Shown: positions 3,320-58,821 of the stretch, one piece after another
Numbering within the stretch: the first letter of the stretch is position 1
Layout: every line of letters starts with the position of its first letter
Assembly: GCA_902520835.1 (NCBI GenBank)
Contig: CABYPD010000001.1
Location: 1-64,000 of the forward strand
Source of the DNA: an uncultured Bacteroidota bacterium
GTDB taxonomy: Bacteria > Bacteroidota > Bacteroidia > Flavobacteriales > Flavobacteriaceae
Direction: 5' to 3'
Length of the DNA stretch: 64,000 nucleotides
The notes under the pieces: model-generated
The model's input: the letters and a program-made list of their open reading frames with translations, nothing else
What the model was told of the DNA's origin: nothing
The model's database searches: none
Position numbers and translations under genes: made by a program

Positions 3320-5251
3320 ATGCTTGATATTAAATTTCCAGATGGTTCAGTTAAACAATTTGAAAATGGTATTACACCTTTTGAAATAGCAAAATCAATC
3401 AGTAATTCTCTTGCAAAAAGTATTTTAAGTGCTTCTTTTAACGAAACAACTATTGAACTATCTACAAAATTAAATGAAAATGGAAATATCAAATTCTATT
3501 CATGGGATAATGATGAAGGAAAGAAAGCTTTTTGGCATTCGACTGCTCATGTTTTAGCTCAGGTTATATTAGAGTTTTATCCAAAATCTAAATTAACTAT
3601 TGGACCTGCAATTGATTTAGGATTTTACTATGATGTCGATTTTGGTGATGATGTTTTCTCTGAAAACGATTTTTCGAAAATTGAGAAGAGGATAATTGAA
3701 ATTTCCCGTGAAGGTTATGATTTTAAAATGCGAGAATGTTCTAAAGATGAAGCTGTAGAGTATTATAAATCTGAAAAAAATGAATATAAACTGGAGCTTA
3801 TTGAAGATATTGATGATAAAATAACTTTTTGTGATCACTCTAATTTTTCAGATTTATGTCGTGGTGGTCATCTTTTAAATACAAAGCTTATTAAGAGTGT
3901 AAAACTTTTAAATGTAGCTGGCGCTTACTGGAGAGGAAACGAAAACAATAAGCAACTAACTAGAATCTATGGTATTTCATTTCCAAAAGAAAAACTATTA
4001 AATGAATATCTCCAATTAATTGAAGAAGCAAAAAAAAGAGATCATAGAATAATTGGAAAAAAAATGAATCTTTTTACTTTCTCAAGTAAAGTCGGTCAAG
4101 GTCTACCACTCTGGCTTCCAGCTGGAGCTGAACTTAGAGAGAGGCTTGAAAATTTCTTAAAAAAAGCTCAAAAAAATGCTGGATATGAAATGGTAATCTC
4201 ACCACACATTGGAAATAAAAAATTGTATGAAATTTCTGGTCATTATGAAAAATATGGTGAAAGTAGTTTCCACCCAATTAAAACTCCAAATATAGATGAA
4301 GAATTTTTACTTAAACCTATGAATTGTCCTCATCATTGTGAAATTTATAATTCACAACAATGGAGCTACAGAGATTTACCAAAAAGATATGCTGAATTTG
4401 GAACTGTGTACCGATATGAACAAAGTGGTGAATTACACGGTTTAACTAGAGTTAGAGGTTTTACTCAAGATGATGCGCATATTTTTTGTACTGAAGATCA
4501 ACTAGTGCAGGAGTTTAAAAATGTTATTGATTTAGTTCTCCACGTATTTAAATCATTAGGTTTTGAAGATTTTACTGCTCAAATTTCTCTCAGAGATAAA
4601 GAAAATAAGGAAAAATACATTGGTTCAGATAAAATTTGGAAGATAGCTGAAGATGCAATTATTGAGGCAACTGAAGAGAAAGAGTTAAATTATAGAATTG
4701 AGTATGGAGAAGCTGCATTTTACGGTCCAAAACTAGATTTTATGGTAAAGGATGCACTAAGTCGCGAATGGCAACTAGGAACAATACAAGTAGATTACAA
4801 TTTACCTGAAAGATTTAATCTGTCATATAAAAATCAAAACAATGAGCTTGTAAGACCTGTAATGATTCATAGAGCACCTTTTGGAAGTCTTGAAAGGTTT
4901 ATAGCAATATTAATTGAACATACAGGCGGGATTTTTCCTCTTTGGTTAGCTTCAAATCAAATTAAATTGATAGCAGTTGGAGATAAACATAAAAATTACA
5001 CTCAAAAAGTTTCAAATTTATTAGAAAAGTCCGAAATTCGCGCAACCTCTGATTTAAGAAATGAAACGGTAGGAAAAAAAATCAGAGAAGCAGAAAAATC
5101 AAAGATTCCATTTATGGGAATAATTGGTGATAAAGAAGTTAATAATCAAACAATATCAATAAGAGCAAAAGGAGGTGGAGAATTTGGAGAAATGGATATT
5201 AAGAAATTAATTAACTTTATTAGAGAAGAAGAATTAAAATCATATAATTAA
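3320..5251 (+). CDS. thrS: Threonyl-tRNA synthetase
   Basis: Class II aminoacyl-tRNA synthetase for threonine, 643 residues, the standard four-part enzyme: an N-terminal TGS domain (about 1-60), the editing domain with HSTAH (about 73-77) and [14 protein letters not shown], the catalytic core with the zinc cysteine in [10 protein letters not shown], and a C-terminal anticodon-binding domain ([11 protein letters not shown] to the end). It is followed after 2 bp by the non-ATG start of infC, an order (thrS-infC-rpmI-rplT) conserved in many bacteria. Confidence 0.97.
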
Positions 5252-5253
5252 AA

Positions 5254-5820
5254 ATTAAAGTTATAGCACTAAGAAGAAAAAGAGGCAGAAGACCTGGAAG
5301 AATAATTAAAAAAAATCCTCATAAAATTAATGAGGAAATTGATGCAAGTGAGGTTAGGCTTGTAGGTGATAATGTACAAGTTGGTATTTACTCTAAATTA
5401 GAAGCCTTAAAGATAGCTAAATCGCTTGAAACTGACTTGGTTGAAATTTCTCCAAAAGCTTCTCCACCTGTTTGTAAAGCTTTAGATTATAAAAAGTTTT
5501 TATACGATCAAAAAAAGAGAGAGAAATTTTTAAAAGCAAAAACTCAAAAAGTTATTGTGAAAGAAATCAGATTTGGTCCTCAAACCGATCAGCATGATTA
5601 TGAATTCAAAAAAAAGCATGCAATTAAATTTTTACAAGATGGAGCTAAGTTAAAAGCTTTTGTATTTTTTAAAGGTAGATCTATTATTTTCAAAGAACAA
5701 GGTCAAATATTACTTTTGAAATTAGCCCAAGAATTAGAAGAATATGGAAAAGTTGAGCAATTACCAACGCTAGAAGGGAAAAAAATGATTATGTTTGTGA
5801 ACCCAAAAAAAAATAAATAA
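5254..5820 (+). CDS. infC: Translation initiation factor IF-3, ATT start
   Basis: IF-3 binds the 30S subunit and checks the initiation codon and initiator tRNA. The frame runs open from 5248 and the first ATG is at 5437, which would remove the N-terminal domain. Codons 5254-5436 encode a normal IF-3 N-terminus ([41 protein letters not shown]), so initiation must use a non-ATG codon; ATT at 5254, 2 bp after the thrS stop, is the best candidate, and ATA at 5263 is the alternative. The product is then 188 residues, the usual size. A rare initiator for infC is known from enterobacteria, where it permits autoregulation by IF-3 itself; use of the same device here is inference. Confidence 0.92.
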
Positions 5821-9047: not shown

Positions 9048-10124
9048 TCATTTTTTTACAAGTTTAAGTATGTAAAATGTAATTAATAAAAACACAAAAT
9101 TTGGTAGCCAAGCTCCGATATTGGGATTCCAATCAGATTTTGAAACTAAAACAGAGAAAAGTTTATCAAAAAAAATAAAAACAAAAGCCAGGACTATTCC
9201 AAAAGCTAAGTTAACTCCAATACCACCTCTTTTTTTATTTGAAGTTACCATAACTGCTAAGAGAGTTAAAATCAAAATTGTGATAGGAAGAGTATATCTT
9301 TTGTTTCGTTCTAGCAAATGACTGGAGAGAATTGGAGAACCACTAGCTTTTTCTTCCTTAATAAATTCATTTAACTCAAACATATTTAATGTTTTAGCTT
9401 GGTATGTGACAGATGAAAGATCACTAATAGAAAAATTAAAAATTGTATCAAAAATCCTTTTTGTTTCAATAATTTCATTTTCATCTTTATATTTTCTACT
9501 AAAATAATCTGTTAATCTATATATGCTATCTTCTTCAATCCAACGAATATTTCTTGAAAATATTTTTTGTGTTAATTTATTTTTTTCAAAAACTTCGTAT
9601 GAAAAATTATATGCTTGATTCCTAGTTGGATTATAGGAACTAACATAAATAAAATCATTTTCATTAATTTGTTTATGAAGCTTTGAAACATTTCTATCTT
9701 TTTTATTTTTTGACAAATATTTATATTGAAATTCATTAAAACTTTTATTTTTTTTTGGAACAATAAACATCCCAGAAATAAATGTAATAAATGATACAGT
9801 TATACCGCATACAATGAATGGCTTTAAATAACGATTATATGAGACTCCCGAACTTAATATTGCAACGATCTCAGAATTATTAGAAAGCTTTGATGTAAAC
9901 CAAATAACTGACAGAAAAACAAAAATTGGAATTAAGGAATAACCATAATACCAAACAAAATCTGAATAATAATCCAAGACTTGATAAAGAGTCAAATCAT
10001 GTTCTTTAAATTTATCAATCTTTTCAGAAATATCGACCAAAATTCCAACTGGAATGAACAATAAAAACATCATCAAAAATGTTGAGAAAAAATTTTTAAC
10101 TATATATAAATCCAAAATCTTCAT
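9048..10124 (-). CDS. LptF/LptG family LPS-transport permease
   Basis: Member of the YjgP/YjgQ permease family that, with the ATPase LptB, extracts lipopolysaccharide from the inner membrane. The 358-residue protein has three N-terminal transmembrane helices (about 12-33, 56-77 and 101-122), a periplasmic beta-rich domain (about 125-270), and three C-terminal helices (about 277-356), as in the family. Sequence alone does not separate LptF from LptG; flavobacterial genomes carry two such genes and only one is here. Its ATG shares one base with the tgt stop, so translation is coupled. Confidence 0.9.
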   Translation of the reverse strand: MKILDLYIVKNFFSTFLMMFLLFIPVGILVDISEKIDKFKEHDLTLYQVLDYYSDFVWYYGYSLIPIFVFLSVIWFTSKLSNNSEIVAILSSGVSYNRYLKPFIVCGITVSFITFISGMFIVPKKNKSFNEFQYKYLSKNKKDRNVSKLHKQINENDFIYVSSYNPTRNQAYNFSYEVFEKNKLTQKIFSRNIRWIEEDSIYRLTDYFSRKYKDENEIIETKRIFDTIFNFSISDLSSVTYQAKTLNMFELNEFIKEEKASGSPILSSHLLERNKRYTLPITILILTLLAVMVTSNKKRGGIGVNLAFGIVLAFVFIFFDKLFSVLVSKSDWNPNIGAWLPNFVFLLITFYILKLVKK

Positions 10125-55267: not shown

Positions 55268-57088
55268 ATGTATTTTAAAAGAGTCTTAAGGCATGTTTTA
55301 GTTTATAAAAAAGAATTTATTCTTAATGTATTCTTTAGTGTTTTATATGCTTTCTTTAGCGCTGTAGCATTTTTATCATTAATGCCAATGCTTGAAGTAT
55401 TATTCAATGGTTCAAAAAAAATTACAGTTAAACCTATATTAGCAAAATCTGAGAGTCTTGGAAATTTTATTGAAAATTGGCTTAATTTTCAGGTTAGTTC
55501 TTACTCAGGAAATGACAATCAAAAAGCTATTCTTTTTGTTGTTGGAATTGTCATAGTGTTGTTCTTCTTAAAAAATGTCGCAAGTTATTTTGCTTTATTT
55601 TTTTCAACTATAATTAGGAACAGAGTTATAAAAGATTTGAAAGAAAGTATTTATAACAAAATAATAGTATTACCGATCGATTATTTTGCAAAAAACAAAA
55701 AAGGAGATTTAATTGCAAGAATGTCATCTGATGTTATGGAGTTACAAAATTCATTTTTATCAATTATAGAGATTTTAATTAGAGATCCACTAACTATTTT
55801 ATTTACTCTGAGTGCAATGTTTATTATTAGCTCTAAGCTTACATTTTTTGTTTTGTTTTTTATTCCAGTTTCTGGATTTATTATTTCTTACATAGGTAAA
55901 AGCTTGAAGAGAAAATCTTTAGTTGTTCAAAAAGAACAAGCAGAACTAATGTCAATCACTGAAGAGACAATTAATGGTATAAAAATAATCAAGACCTTTT
56001 TATCTGAGAATTTTTTTGTAAACAAATTTGATAAAACTAATACCAAGTATTTAAATTTTTCAAATAAATTAATTAACAGACAAAATATTGCAGCTCCTTT
56101 AAGTGAATTTCTGGGTATTTTAGTCATTGGAGTTCTTTTGTGGTATGGTGGAAAATTAGTACTTATTGATATGGAATTAAAACCTGCTGCTTTTATTACT
56201 TATATGGGATTGGCTTATGGTGTTTTAACACCAGCGAAATCTTTAAGCAAAGCTTTTTATTCATTAAAAAAAGGTAATGCAGCAGCAGAAAGAGTATTTG
56301 AAATTATAGATATGCACAGTGAATATCAAGAAAATGATAAAAATTTTGATGTGGAAGAATTCAAAAAAGAGATTGAATTTCAAGACGTTGATTTTAAATA
56401 TGATGAGAATTATGTTTTAAATAAGATAAACTTTAAAGTTAAAAAAGGTGAAATGGTTGCGATTGTTGGTGCATCGGGAAGTGGAAAATCTACACTAATT
56501 AACTTACTCCCTAGATTTTATGAACTTAACAATGGAGATATTTTGATAGATGGTAAAAGCATAAAAAGCTTGTCTCTAAAAAAATTAAGAAACCTAATTA
56601 GTATTGTTACTCAAGAATCTATTCTTTTTAACGCATCAATTGAAGAAAATATTCTTTTAGGCAATCAAAATCAAGGTCAACATAAATTAATAGAGGCTTC
56701 AAAAATTGCAAATGCTTATGAATTTATTAATGAATATGAAGAAAAATATAAATATAATGTTGGGGATAATGGATCTAATCTTTCTGGTGGACAAAAGCAA
56801 AGAATTGCCATTTCAAGAGCCGTTATATCAAACTCGCCAATACTTATTTTAGATGAAGCAACATCATCACTAGACTCAGAGTCTGAAAAGTTAGTTCAGG
56901 ACGCTTTAGAGAAATTGATGAAGAATAAAACTTCAATTGTTATAGCTCACCGATTATCAACAATCAAAAATTCTGACAAAATCATCGTTTTAGATAGCGG
57001 TAAAATTGTGGAGAAGGGAAATCATGATGAACTAATTAATAAAAATGGATATTATTCCAAGCTTATTAAATTACAGTCATTTAATTAA
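55268..57088 (+). CDS. MsbA-like ABC exporter
   Basis: 606-residue half-transporter: six transmembrane helices (about 20-310) then an ATPase with Walker A VGASGSGKSTLINLL, Q-loop VTQESILF, signature LSGGQKQRIAISRA, Walker B ILILDEATSSLDSE and H-loop IAHRLSTI. Homodimeric lipid or lipid-sugar flippase is likely given the preceding glycosyltransferase; the exact cargo is not shown. Confidence 0.92.
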   Translation: MYFKRVLRHVLVYKKEFILNVFFSVLYAFFSAVAFLSLMPMLEVLFNGSKKITVKPILAKSESLGNFIENWLNFQVSSYSGNDNQKAILFVVGIVIVLFFLKNVASYFALFFSTIIRNRVIKDLKESIYNKIIVLPIDYFAKNKKGDLIARMSSDVMELQNSFLSIIEILIRDPLTILFTLSAMFIISSKLTFFVLFFIPVSGFIISYIGKSLKRKSLVVQKEQAELMSITEETINGIKIIKTFLSENFFVNKFDKTNTKYLNFSNKLINRQNIAAPLSEFLGILVIGVLLWYGGKLVLIDMELKPAAFITYMGLAYGVLTPAKSLSKAFYSLKKGNAAAERVFEIIDMHSEYQENDKNFDVEEFKKEIEFQDVDFKYDENYVLNKINFKVKKGEMVAIVGASGSGKSTLINLLPRFYELNNGDILIDGKSIKSLSLKKLRNLISIVTQESILFNASIEENILLGNQNQGQHKLIEASKIANAYEFINEYEEKYKYNVGDNGSNLSGGQKQRIAISRAVISNSPILILDEATSSLDSESEKLVQDALEKLMKNKTSIVIAHRLSTIKNSDKIIVLDSGKIVEKGNHDELINKNGYYSKLIKLQSFN

Positions 57089-57139
57089 ACTAAAACATAG
57101 GCATATATTCTTCTTTTAGTTCAATTATTTTTTTTTTTT
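57083..57139 (+). terminator. Rho-independent terminator after the ABC exporter
   Basis: AACTAAAA (57088-57095) pairs with TTTTAGTT (57114-57121); beyond an A-C mismatch the stem extends (AATT / AATT), followed directly by T12 (57128-57139). It ends the 52623-57088 operon and isolates the next gene. Confidence 0.6.
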
Positions 57140-57161
57140 AACTTTAAGAAAAATCATAATT

Positions 57162-58160
57162 ATGAATCCATTAATTGAAATGTCAATACAAGGAGGTAGA
57201 TACCTGGAAGCTGAAAAACAAGTTGGAGATATTATTCTTTCTGAACCAAGCGCTGAAGCTTATTTTATGCTGGGAACAGTTAAATCAAATTTGTTACTAG
57301 ATAAAGGGCGAAGCTACATGGAGGTGCAATTTTGTTTTGATAAATATCTAGAAATGTCTGAGAACAGGTCTCAAGCAGAGAAAGATGTAATGGCTTTTTG
57401 CGTAGGGCTTTACTCTCAACTTGCAGAACTTGAGAAGAAACTACAAGAACAAAAGAAAAAGGAAGCGTGGAACGCTGCTCTTGGTGTACTTGTGACATTC
57501 GCAGCTTCAAAAATTATCGACAACTCAAAACAATCTTTTGGAGCAATAAGCGGAATAGTAGGTGCTGGTTTTGGTGTAGGAATGTCTATGGAAAGTCTTT
57601 CAAATATCGGTAGTTTAAGTGATATTATGGCATATGTAATCAGAATTAAAGTTGAAATGATTGACTATCTAAAAACTTGTGTTAAAAATGAAGTTAGGCT
57701 ATTTGAATCTGAAATATTAACTCTAGGTGAAAAATATGGAAATGTTGCTCAAGTTGATTCTTCTGTTGATGTTTCTGAGTTAAAGAGTGTTTTAGGAAAT
57801 AATTTCGTTCCTCCAACTGAAGCAATAGCGCTAGTACAAATTGGCGAAAGACATGCTAGTATAAAAACATGGCATACAAAAGGATTTTTAAAAAACACTC
57901 CCTTTCAAGTACCAGTTGGTGAAAATGTATTGTTTGGTTTTAAGAGCAATAAAAGCCCTAATTTAATGGAATATCTATTTACTACAAAAGGTGTTTATAT
58001 TATGAATAATCCAAAATTAATGCCATACAGTAAAGTCAGTTTTAAGCACAATCTATTAACAACTATTGGTCATAATAGGGTTTTTGGATTACAAACAAGA
58101 ATTGATAATCAAAGTAACATTATTGAAGCTCTAAACAATTTTATATCAACTAAGAAATAA
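57162..58160 (+). CDS. Unrecognised 332-residue protein with glycine-zipper segment
   Basis: I do not recognise this protein. Residues 1-65 look like one or two TPR helices (GGRYLEAEKQVGDIILSEPS, AEAYFMLGTVKSNLL). Residues 85-102 are a short Lys/Glu/Gln-rich coiled coil. Residues 103-142 are hydrophobic and Gly/Ala-rich (WNAALGVLVTFAAS, then FGAISGIVGAGFGVGMS), like a glycine zipper that could insert into membranes. Residues 150-215 are helical. Residues 218-332 are beta-rich, with LFGFKSNKSP, EYLFTTKGVYIMN and PYSKVSF, reminiscent of bacterial PH-like/short beta domains. Base composition seems less AT-rich than neighbours (for example nt 57300-57500). It is isolated by a terminator upstream and an 80-bp gap downstream. 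Confidence 0.8.
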   Translation: MNPLIEMSIQGGRYLEAEKQVGDIILSEPSAEAYFMLGTVKSNLLLDKGRSYMEVQFCFDKYLEMSENRSQAEKDVMAFCVGLYSQLAELEKKLQEQKKKEAWNAALGVLVTFAASKIIDNSKQSFGAISGIVGAGFGVGMSMESLSNIGSLSDIMAYVIRIKVEMIDYLKTCVKNEVRLFESEILTLGEKYGNVAQVDSSVDVSELKSVLGNNFVPPTEAIALVQIGERHASIKTWHTKGFLKNTPFQVPVGENVLFGFKSNKSPNLMEYLFTTKGVYIMNNPKLMPYSKVSFKHNLLTTIGHNRVFGLQTRIDNQSNIIEALNNFISTKK

Positions 58161-58205
58161 TTATTAAAAAATTGTGAAAGCTTTTACAAGAATAGAAAGT
58201 AAAAA

Positions 58206-58213
58206 TAGCTTTG
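58206..58213 (+). promoter_or_regulatory. Candidate -7 box upstream of the ECF sigma gene
   Basis: TAGCTTTG fits TAnnTTTG, 29 bp before the ATG at 58243. No TTG at the standard distance; an ECF-type autoregulated promoter cannot be recognised by eye. Confidence 0.35.
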
Positions 58214-58242
58214 TTCTTAAAATAAACTAAATCAGATTTTTT

Positions 58243-58821
58243 ATGTCAAAATCAAAAAGTATTTCTTTGAAAGATTTTGAAAATAAATTAATTAAAGACT
58301 TAAAAGATCCTTTTAAGCAAAATAAAGCTTTTGAAATTTTACTCAATAAGTATAAAGAAAAGGTATACTTTCAGATAAGAAGAATTGTTTTAAATCATGA
58401 TGATACTGATGATATTCTTCAAAATGTTTTCATTAAAGTATTTCGTGGAATCAAAGGTTTTAAAGGTGAAAGTAAACTTAGTACTTGGATTTACAGAATT
58501 GCATATAATGAATCTATAAACTTTTTAAAACTAAAAGAAAAAAAATATTTTTATTCATCTGAAATCATGATGAATACTATGGTTAATAACTTAAGAGAAG
58601 ATCCTTATTTTGATGGTGATGAGGTTGAATTAAAATTACAGGGCATAATATCAAGATTACCTAAACAACAGAAAATTGTTTTTCAAATGAAATATTTTCA
58701 AGAATTGAAATTTAGAGAAATTTCTGAAATTCTTGGAGTGACAACTGGCGCTCTTAAAGCATCATTTCATCTTGCTAAGCAAAAAATTATAAAAGAACTA
58801 AAATCAAATCAAACCTTTTAA
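58243..58821 (+). CDS. ECF-type RNA polymerase sigma factor
   Basis: 192 residues: region 2 (about 18-90) with DDILQNVFIKVFRGIKGFKGESKLSTWIYRIAYNESINFLK, region 4 (about 125-185) with LPKQQKIVFQMKYFQELKFREISEILGVTTGALKASFHLAKQKI. Region 3 is absent, as in extracytoplasmic-function sigma factors. Two downstream genes encode a membrane-anchored protein and an exported protein, the pattern of sigma/anti-sigma/sensor modules. Confidence 0.93.
   Translation: MSKSKSISLKDFENKLIKDLKDPFKQNKAFEILLNKYKEKVYFQIRRIVLNHDDTDDILQNVFIKVFRGIKGFKGESKLSTWIYRIAYNESINFLKLKEKKYFYSSEIMMNTMVNNLREDPYFDGDEVELKLQGIISRLPKQQKIVFQMKYFQELKFREISEILGVTTGALKASFHLAKQKIIKELKSNQTF

Follow-up and report, generated by a model that had tools for sequence, protein, structure and literature searches.

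A lone orphan gene in a Flavobacteriaceae genome is probably the cargo of an integron-like gene cassette

Introduction

How did a gene without relatives in any collection we searched come to lie between two genes that are direct neighbours in the nearest genome? The question arises in a stretch of 64,000 nucleotides from an uncultured Flavobacteriaceae bacterium (contig CABYPD010000001.1; hereafter the window), where an intact open reading frame of 332 amino acids (57162..58160, forward strand) follows an ABC transporter gene (55268..57088, +) and precedes a gene for an ECF sigma factor (58243..58821, +). A first-pass annotation made from the sequence alone had described the gene as an orphan of no known family, standing alone between a strong terminator and the sigma factor gene, and had taken its codon use as a hint of acquisition. 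We followed up these claims, and in doing so we were led from the gene itself to its left edge, and from there to a family of tyrosine recombinases accompanied by small gene units.

Results

The 332-residue frame is a genuine gene and, as far as the collections searched reach, an orphan. Pfam, NCBIfam, PHROGs and PADLOC gave no family match at a useful score and the PDB gave no relative, which bears out the claim that the protein belongs to no known family; the profile search that had been proposed along with it returned no known-domain match (Pfam, NCBIfam). We found no relatives among 100 near genomes and 395 Bacteroidota genomes, none in plasmid or phage collections and none in IMG/VR or, by peptide words, in a contig set of 85,000 species, the last two scans having a reach limited to close relatives. 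The 49 genomes bearing the integrase described below hold no real relatives either. The sole weak matches of these searches are due to chance, and one of them falls within a histidine-biosynthesis locus. Low-scoring matches to NuoF and Glr1262 were rejected as noise. The spread of homologues had been suggested as a further check: there are none at the same locus, nor in the samples of the genus, the family or the phylum.

The codon use of the orphan was said to be less AT-rich than that of its neighbours. We could not confirm this: its GC3 of 0.164 lies near the mean of 0.148 (z = 0.75), and its codon use is host-like. The overall GC content is raised (0.325), but the source of this lies in codon positions 1 and 2 and hence in the amino acid composition, GC3 being ordinary. 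We thus rejected codon use as an argument for acquisition.

Yet, the gene was acquired. This follows from an empty site in related genomes and from a recombination site that marks the left end of the insert. In the nearest genome, that of a sister species whose sigma protein is 97% identical (G003), the ABC and ECF sigma genes are adjacent, the sigma start lying 17 bp past the ABC stop, and the same short junction is found in six more congeners (G016, G004, G022, G007, G008 and G010). Aligned with G003, the flanks are 97.6% identical up to 57097 and 96.8% identical from 58217. One 18-bp stretch of the empty site aligns to both junctions, and the insert is therefore bounded by an imperfect repeat of about 18 bp, with the exact core TAAACTAAA in a left copy (57086..57094, +) and a right copy (58223..58231, +). 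With these flanking repeats the inserted segment spans 57086..58231, without assigned strand, for a net gain of 1,137 bp over the empty site. Taken by itself, the 9-bp repeat says little in DNA as AT-rich as this (34 of 500 shuffles).

The left edge of the insert is an att site of about 40 bp (57083..57123, +; consensus CTAAACCATAGGCATATCTTCTTCTTTTAA). On the opposite strand, at 57090..57125, one reads directly from the sequence the remnant of the coding tail of a tyrosine recombinase, IELKEEYMPMF plus stop, where the intact recombinase of G003, at G003:C13:26343-27380, ends in TELKEEDMPMV plus stop. A DNA search of the genus showed that the first ~70 bp of the insert recur at several other places. 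We built a model of the site (R1; 44 positions) from 22 sites, leaving out the one in the window. Its sole significant match in the window is 57083-57123 (32.1 bits, E = 5e-9), and this site has an E-value of 1.2e-7 in a scan of the whole genome. In 23 congener genomes the motif CATAGGCATATCTTCTTCTTT has 21 matches and its reversed control none. Conservation is slight in the left half of the site. The empty site reads ACTAAACCA and corresponds to the left portion of the att consensus. Two types of sites occur in the genus: type B sites are integrase tails, and type A sites consist of an att, a short leader and a start codon. Intact integrases adjoin att copies in G003 and G017. The window site is of type A. 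Its leader (57128..57161, +) contains a conserved TAACTTTAAG and is common to five other cassettes of the genus; TAACTTTAAG is promoter-like and may serve as a promoter.

The same site accounts for the terminator. An inverted repeat, AATTAAACTAAAA...TTTTAGTTCAATT, extends across the att (57082..57127, +) and, with the T-run that comes after it, has a terminator-like look; hairpin and T-run together (57082-57140, ahead of the orphan) fold in a way that one of 200 shuffles equals. The first-pass annotation was right about the sigma factor neighbour, but what it called a strong terminator is a recombination site followed by a cassette leader. The AT-rich hairpin over the att, with its T-run, may still end transcription of the ABC gene.

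The genome under study has only one other strong att, a decayed integrase tail beside rseP (G000:C4:51717-51757). At this RseP/M3-peptidase hotspot the homology to G003 ends precisely at the att core and picks up again near rseP. In between lies a 172-aa gene in our genome versus about 10.5 kb in G003, an island with a type I restriction system, a NucS-like nuclease cassette and an intact integrase. The system has thus been active since the sister species parted. G003 and G017 likewise have a hotspot at rseP. The decayed att and integrase tail lie around 4718-5320 of locus L131 (G000:C4:47000-60000), where the 172-aa gene has no Pfam family; the G003 island spans 11,000-19,400 of L132 (G003:C13:8000-27900), and its nuclease cassette is NucS/YhcG-like.

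Homologues of the integrase are sporadic, with 13 of 300 Flavobacteriaceae genomes carrying one, and none was found in our genome, which is 84% complete. Bacteroidetes genomes, mostly marine, hold 209 integrase-related stretches. The catalytic residues are conserved in relatives, R208, K236, R297, H320 and Y329 being invariant among eight integrases. All of our evidence derives from MAGs, from single-cell genomes and from a small number of isolates. In G626, an intact integrase is followed downstream by single-gene units, set apart by three copies of its tail (at 9885, 8967 and 7543; 87-91% identity over 60-80 bp). Four copies in G580 (at 5361, 7184, 7531 and 8262) bound units likewise.

To put numbers on this pattern we surveyed 78 named integrase loci with the last 33 nt of the integrase as query and 33-mers from the same genes as control. 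At the threshold used, 72 extra copies of the tail turned up in 29 of the 78 loci, i.e. 0.92 per locus against 0.022 for the control 33-mers, about 40 times as many. They lie mostly downstream of the integrase (62, against 10 upstream). The 55 units between tail copies measure 917 bp in the median. A single ORF of at least 70 aa is present in 36 of them, and of the 64 ORFs of this size 46 are convergent to the integrase. The window cassette agrees with the surveyed ones in length and orientation. Many array sites are also recovered by R1, independently of the counting script. Two loci with related integrases (L163 and L190) have att copies in common and almost entirely different cassette sequence. 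Four of the nine cargo proteins scanned have no Pfam family at E 0.01.

The longest arrays that we saw, of six units each, are at L152 (11042-14084) and L163 (7507-12672), and the smallest units of L152 measure 276-465 bp. Among the products of the four att-bounded units of L124 (5359-8944; G580:C5) are a UmuDC-like pair, a small HTH protein together with a partner of 141 aa, and a membrane-like protein of 73 aa.

Discussion

We propose that the arrays are built by a Xer-like tyrosine recombinase which would use an att of ~30-40 bp overlapping the 3' end of its own gene. A cassette unit would consist of an att copy and usually one gene and, presumably as a circle, would recombine at the CTAAAC core with an att-like target. 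Insertion at the integrase tail would restore the end of the reading frame and leave a fresh att. Since each insertion would leave a new att, cassettes would stack as a tandem array, and since they would be added at the 3' end of the integrase, each would carry a copy of its last codons. In the window, a cassette made of att, leader and orphan would have recombined into a secondary chromosomal site between the ABC and sigma genes, leaving the core duplicated at both ends of the insert. The target, TAAACTAAACCA, agrees with the left part of the att consensus. We infer that the integrase catalysed this insertion, and it would have acted in trans or have been lost since; action in trans is suggested because no integrase is seen in our 84%-complete genome. 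The orphan is very probably the cargo of a single-gene cassette of an integron-like system of marine Bacteroidetes, which landed at a secondary site.

Could such an insert arise without the integrase? Illegitimate recombination might have pasted an old piece of array, att and gene together, into the ABC/sigma junction by way of the TAAACTAAA microhomology. This would fit a genome in which no integrase was detected, and a repeat as short as TAAACTAAA is likely enough by chance. But it leaves as coincidences that the left break coincides with the att core, the point of recombination also at the RseP hotspot and in the arrays, and that the empty site is itself the left part of the att consensus, and we regard it as unlikely. 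Two other accounts dispense with the insertion altogether. Host-like codon use is what one would expect of an ancestral gene lost from all relatives, yet the clean two-gene junction in seven congeners, one of them 97% identical, the att at the insert edge and the lack of any relative in the samples of genus, family or phylum make this highly improbable. The related genomes are single-cell or metagenome assemblies, and an amplification or assembly chimera might be suspected; both flanks, however, run collinear with the empty site, the ORF of the insert is intact and host-like in its codon use, and the edge of the insert is marked by a cassette att, so that we would give a chimera hardly any credit.

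The cassette reading invites comparison with integrons. There, too, a tyrosine recombinase is accompanied by small cassettes in tandem, most of them holding one gene and each provided with its own recombination site, and integrons also have orphan cargo genes and occasional insertions at secondary sites. Among the defining features of integrons, which we took from PMC9668308, the tandem array of small cassettes next to the integrase is present here, and most genes point in one direction, as in an ordinary integron with IntI and attC. However, the integrases score 18.5-28.4 bits with the integron integrase model (TIGR02249), far under its cut-off of 265. The sites are conserved in sequence, and their consensus lacks the R''/R' boxes of attC (GTTRRRY/RYYYAAC); no consistent attC-like hairpin fold is seen, since the bottom-strand z-score is -4.3 for the window site, whereas two arrays give -0.7 and -0.95. 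The site also sits within the 3' end of the integrase's own gene. On the first two of these tests, integrase model and attC-type site, we rejected a filing as integron, and an ordinary integron cassette is a very implausible source of the orphan. Unlike in integrons, arrays are extended from the 3' end of the gene for the integrase, the site repeats the last integrase codons in conserved sequence where an integron has a folded attC, and the cassettes of this genus have a common promoter-like leader.

Other known systems share part of these traits. The closest models to the integrase are those of Xer recombinases (XerC/XerD and archaeal XerA; NF040815, TIGR02224), and the closest solved structure is an archaeal XerC-like protein (PDB 4a8e). 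But unlike Xer proteins the family is sporadic and linked to cassette arrays, and it falls below all Xer cut-offs, for which reason we did not file it there. SCC elements at rlmH are islands that integrate in tandem at the 3' end of one gene. As in the arrays described here, their att at the gene's 3' end is regenerated at each insertion and elements stack; here, in contrast, the target gene is that of the recombinase itself, and the units are of ~0.9 kb, mostly single-gene and without a recombinase of their own. Tycheposons and other tRNA-targeting islands of marine bacteria are tyrosine-recombinase islands that bring accessory cargo into streamlined genomes. Tycheposons resemble our system in having a tyrosine recombinase and accessory cargo in streamlined marine genomes, but they target tRNA genes and form larger islands. 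We know of no recombinase-tail att repeats in tycheposons or other tRNA-targeting islands. The term tycheposons is used in PMC10872708.

More generally, we think it likely that a second integron-like platform, of independent origin, exists in marine Bacteroidetes. In it, a Xer-like integrase whose att is the 3' coding end of its own gene would collect cassettes that mostly hold one gene, many of them coding for proteins without relatives, and could scatter them to secondary chromosomal sites. In the open-licence papers searched we found no description of integrase-tail cassette arrays, and this gene-collecting route looks like an undescribed one. Few gene-capture systems are known from the small genomes of streamlined marine Bacteroidetes. 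If our reading is true, a cassette platform distinct from integrons would explain the origin of many of their orphan genes, the last ~33 bases of the integrase would be a simple search key for harvesting cassette genes from metagenomes, and this would be a second case of a recombinase turned gene collector.

What the orphan itself does is a matter for more guarded statements. Structure prediction from the single sequence gives one confidently modelled part, a helical hairpin at residues ~11-40. This is compatible with the TPR-like start suggested before, but no TPR profile of Pfam matches the protein even at E 10. The model of the whole protein has a pLDDT of 42, and that of the C-terminal third 35, too poor for a structure search. 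Residues 103-142 had been read as a Gly/Ala-rich, membrane-active segment. The enrichment is real (a maximum of 14 G+A per 40 residues; 22 of 5000 shuffles), with glycine clustering on its own insignificant (251 of 2000 shuffles), but no glycine-zipper profile of Pfam matches and the peak hydropathy of 1.35 over 19 residues (KD19) is under the usual transmembrane level. A heptad-like helix lies at about 151-192, and the beta-rich C-terminal end is predicted in outline only, by models below pLDDT 50. No bPH profile of Pfam matches this end, and its comparison with 29 bPH_3 sequences gave a shuffle-level score, in a test where positive controls failed too. The Gly/Ala-rich segment is all that speaks for the proposed membrane-remodelling or effector protein. 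The protein is probably soluble, a helical scaffold that ends in a beta-rich part. For its role we can offer a tentative guess, in which we put little confidence, of a cytosolic accessory function, perhaps in anti-phage defence, because the sister island carries restriction and nuclease cargo. A variable island of G017 contains a small protein (L133 7796-8239; G017:C7) that by eye is PH-domain-like with a SHOCT-like tail.
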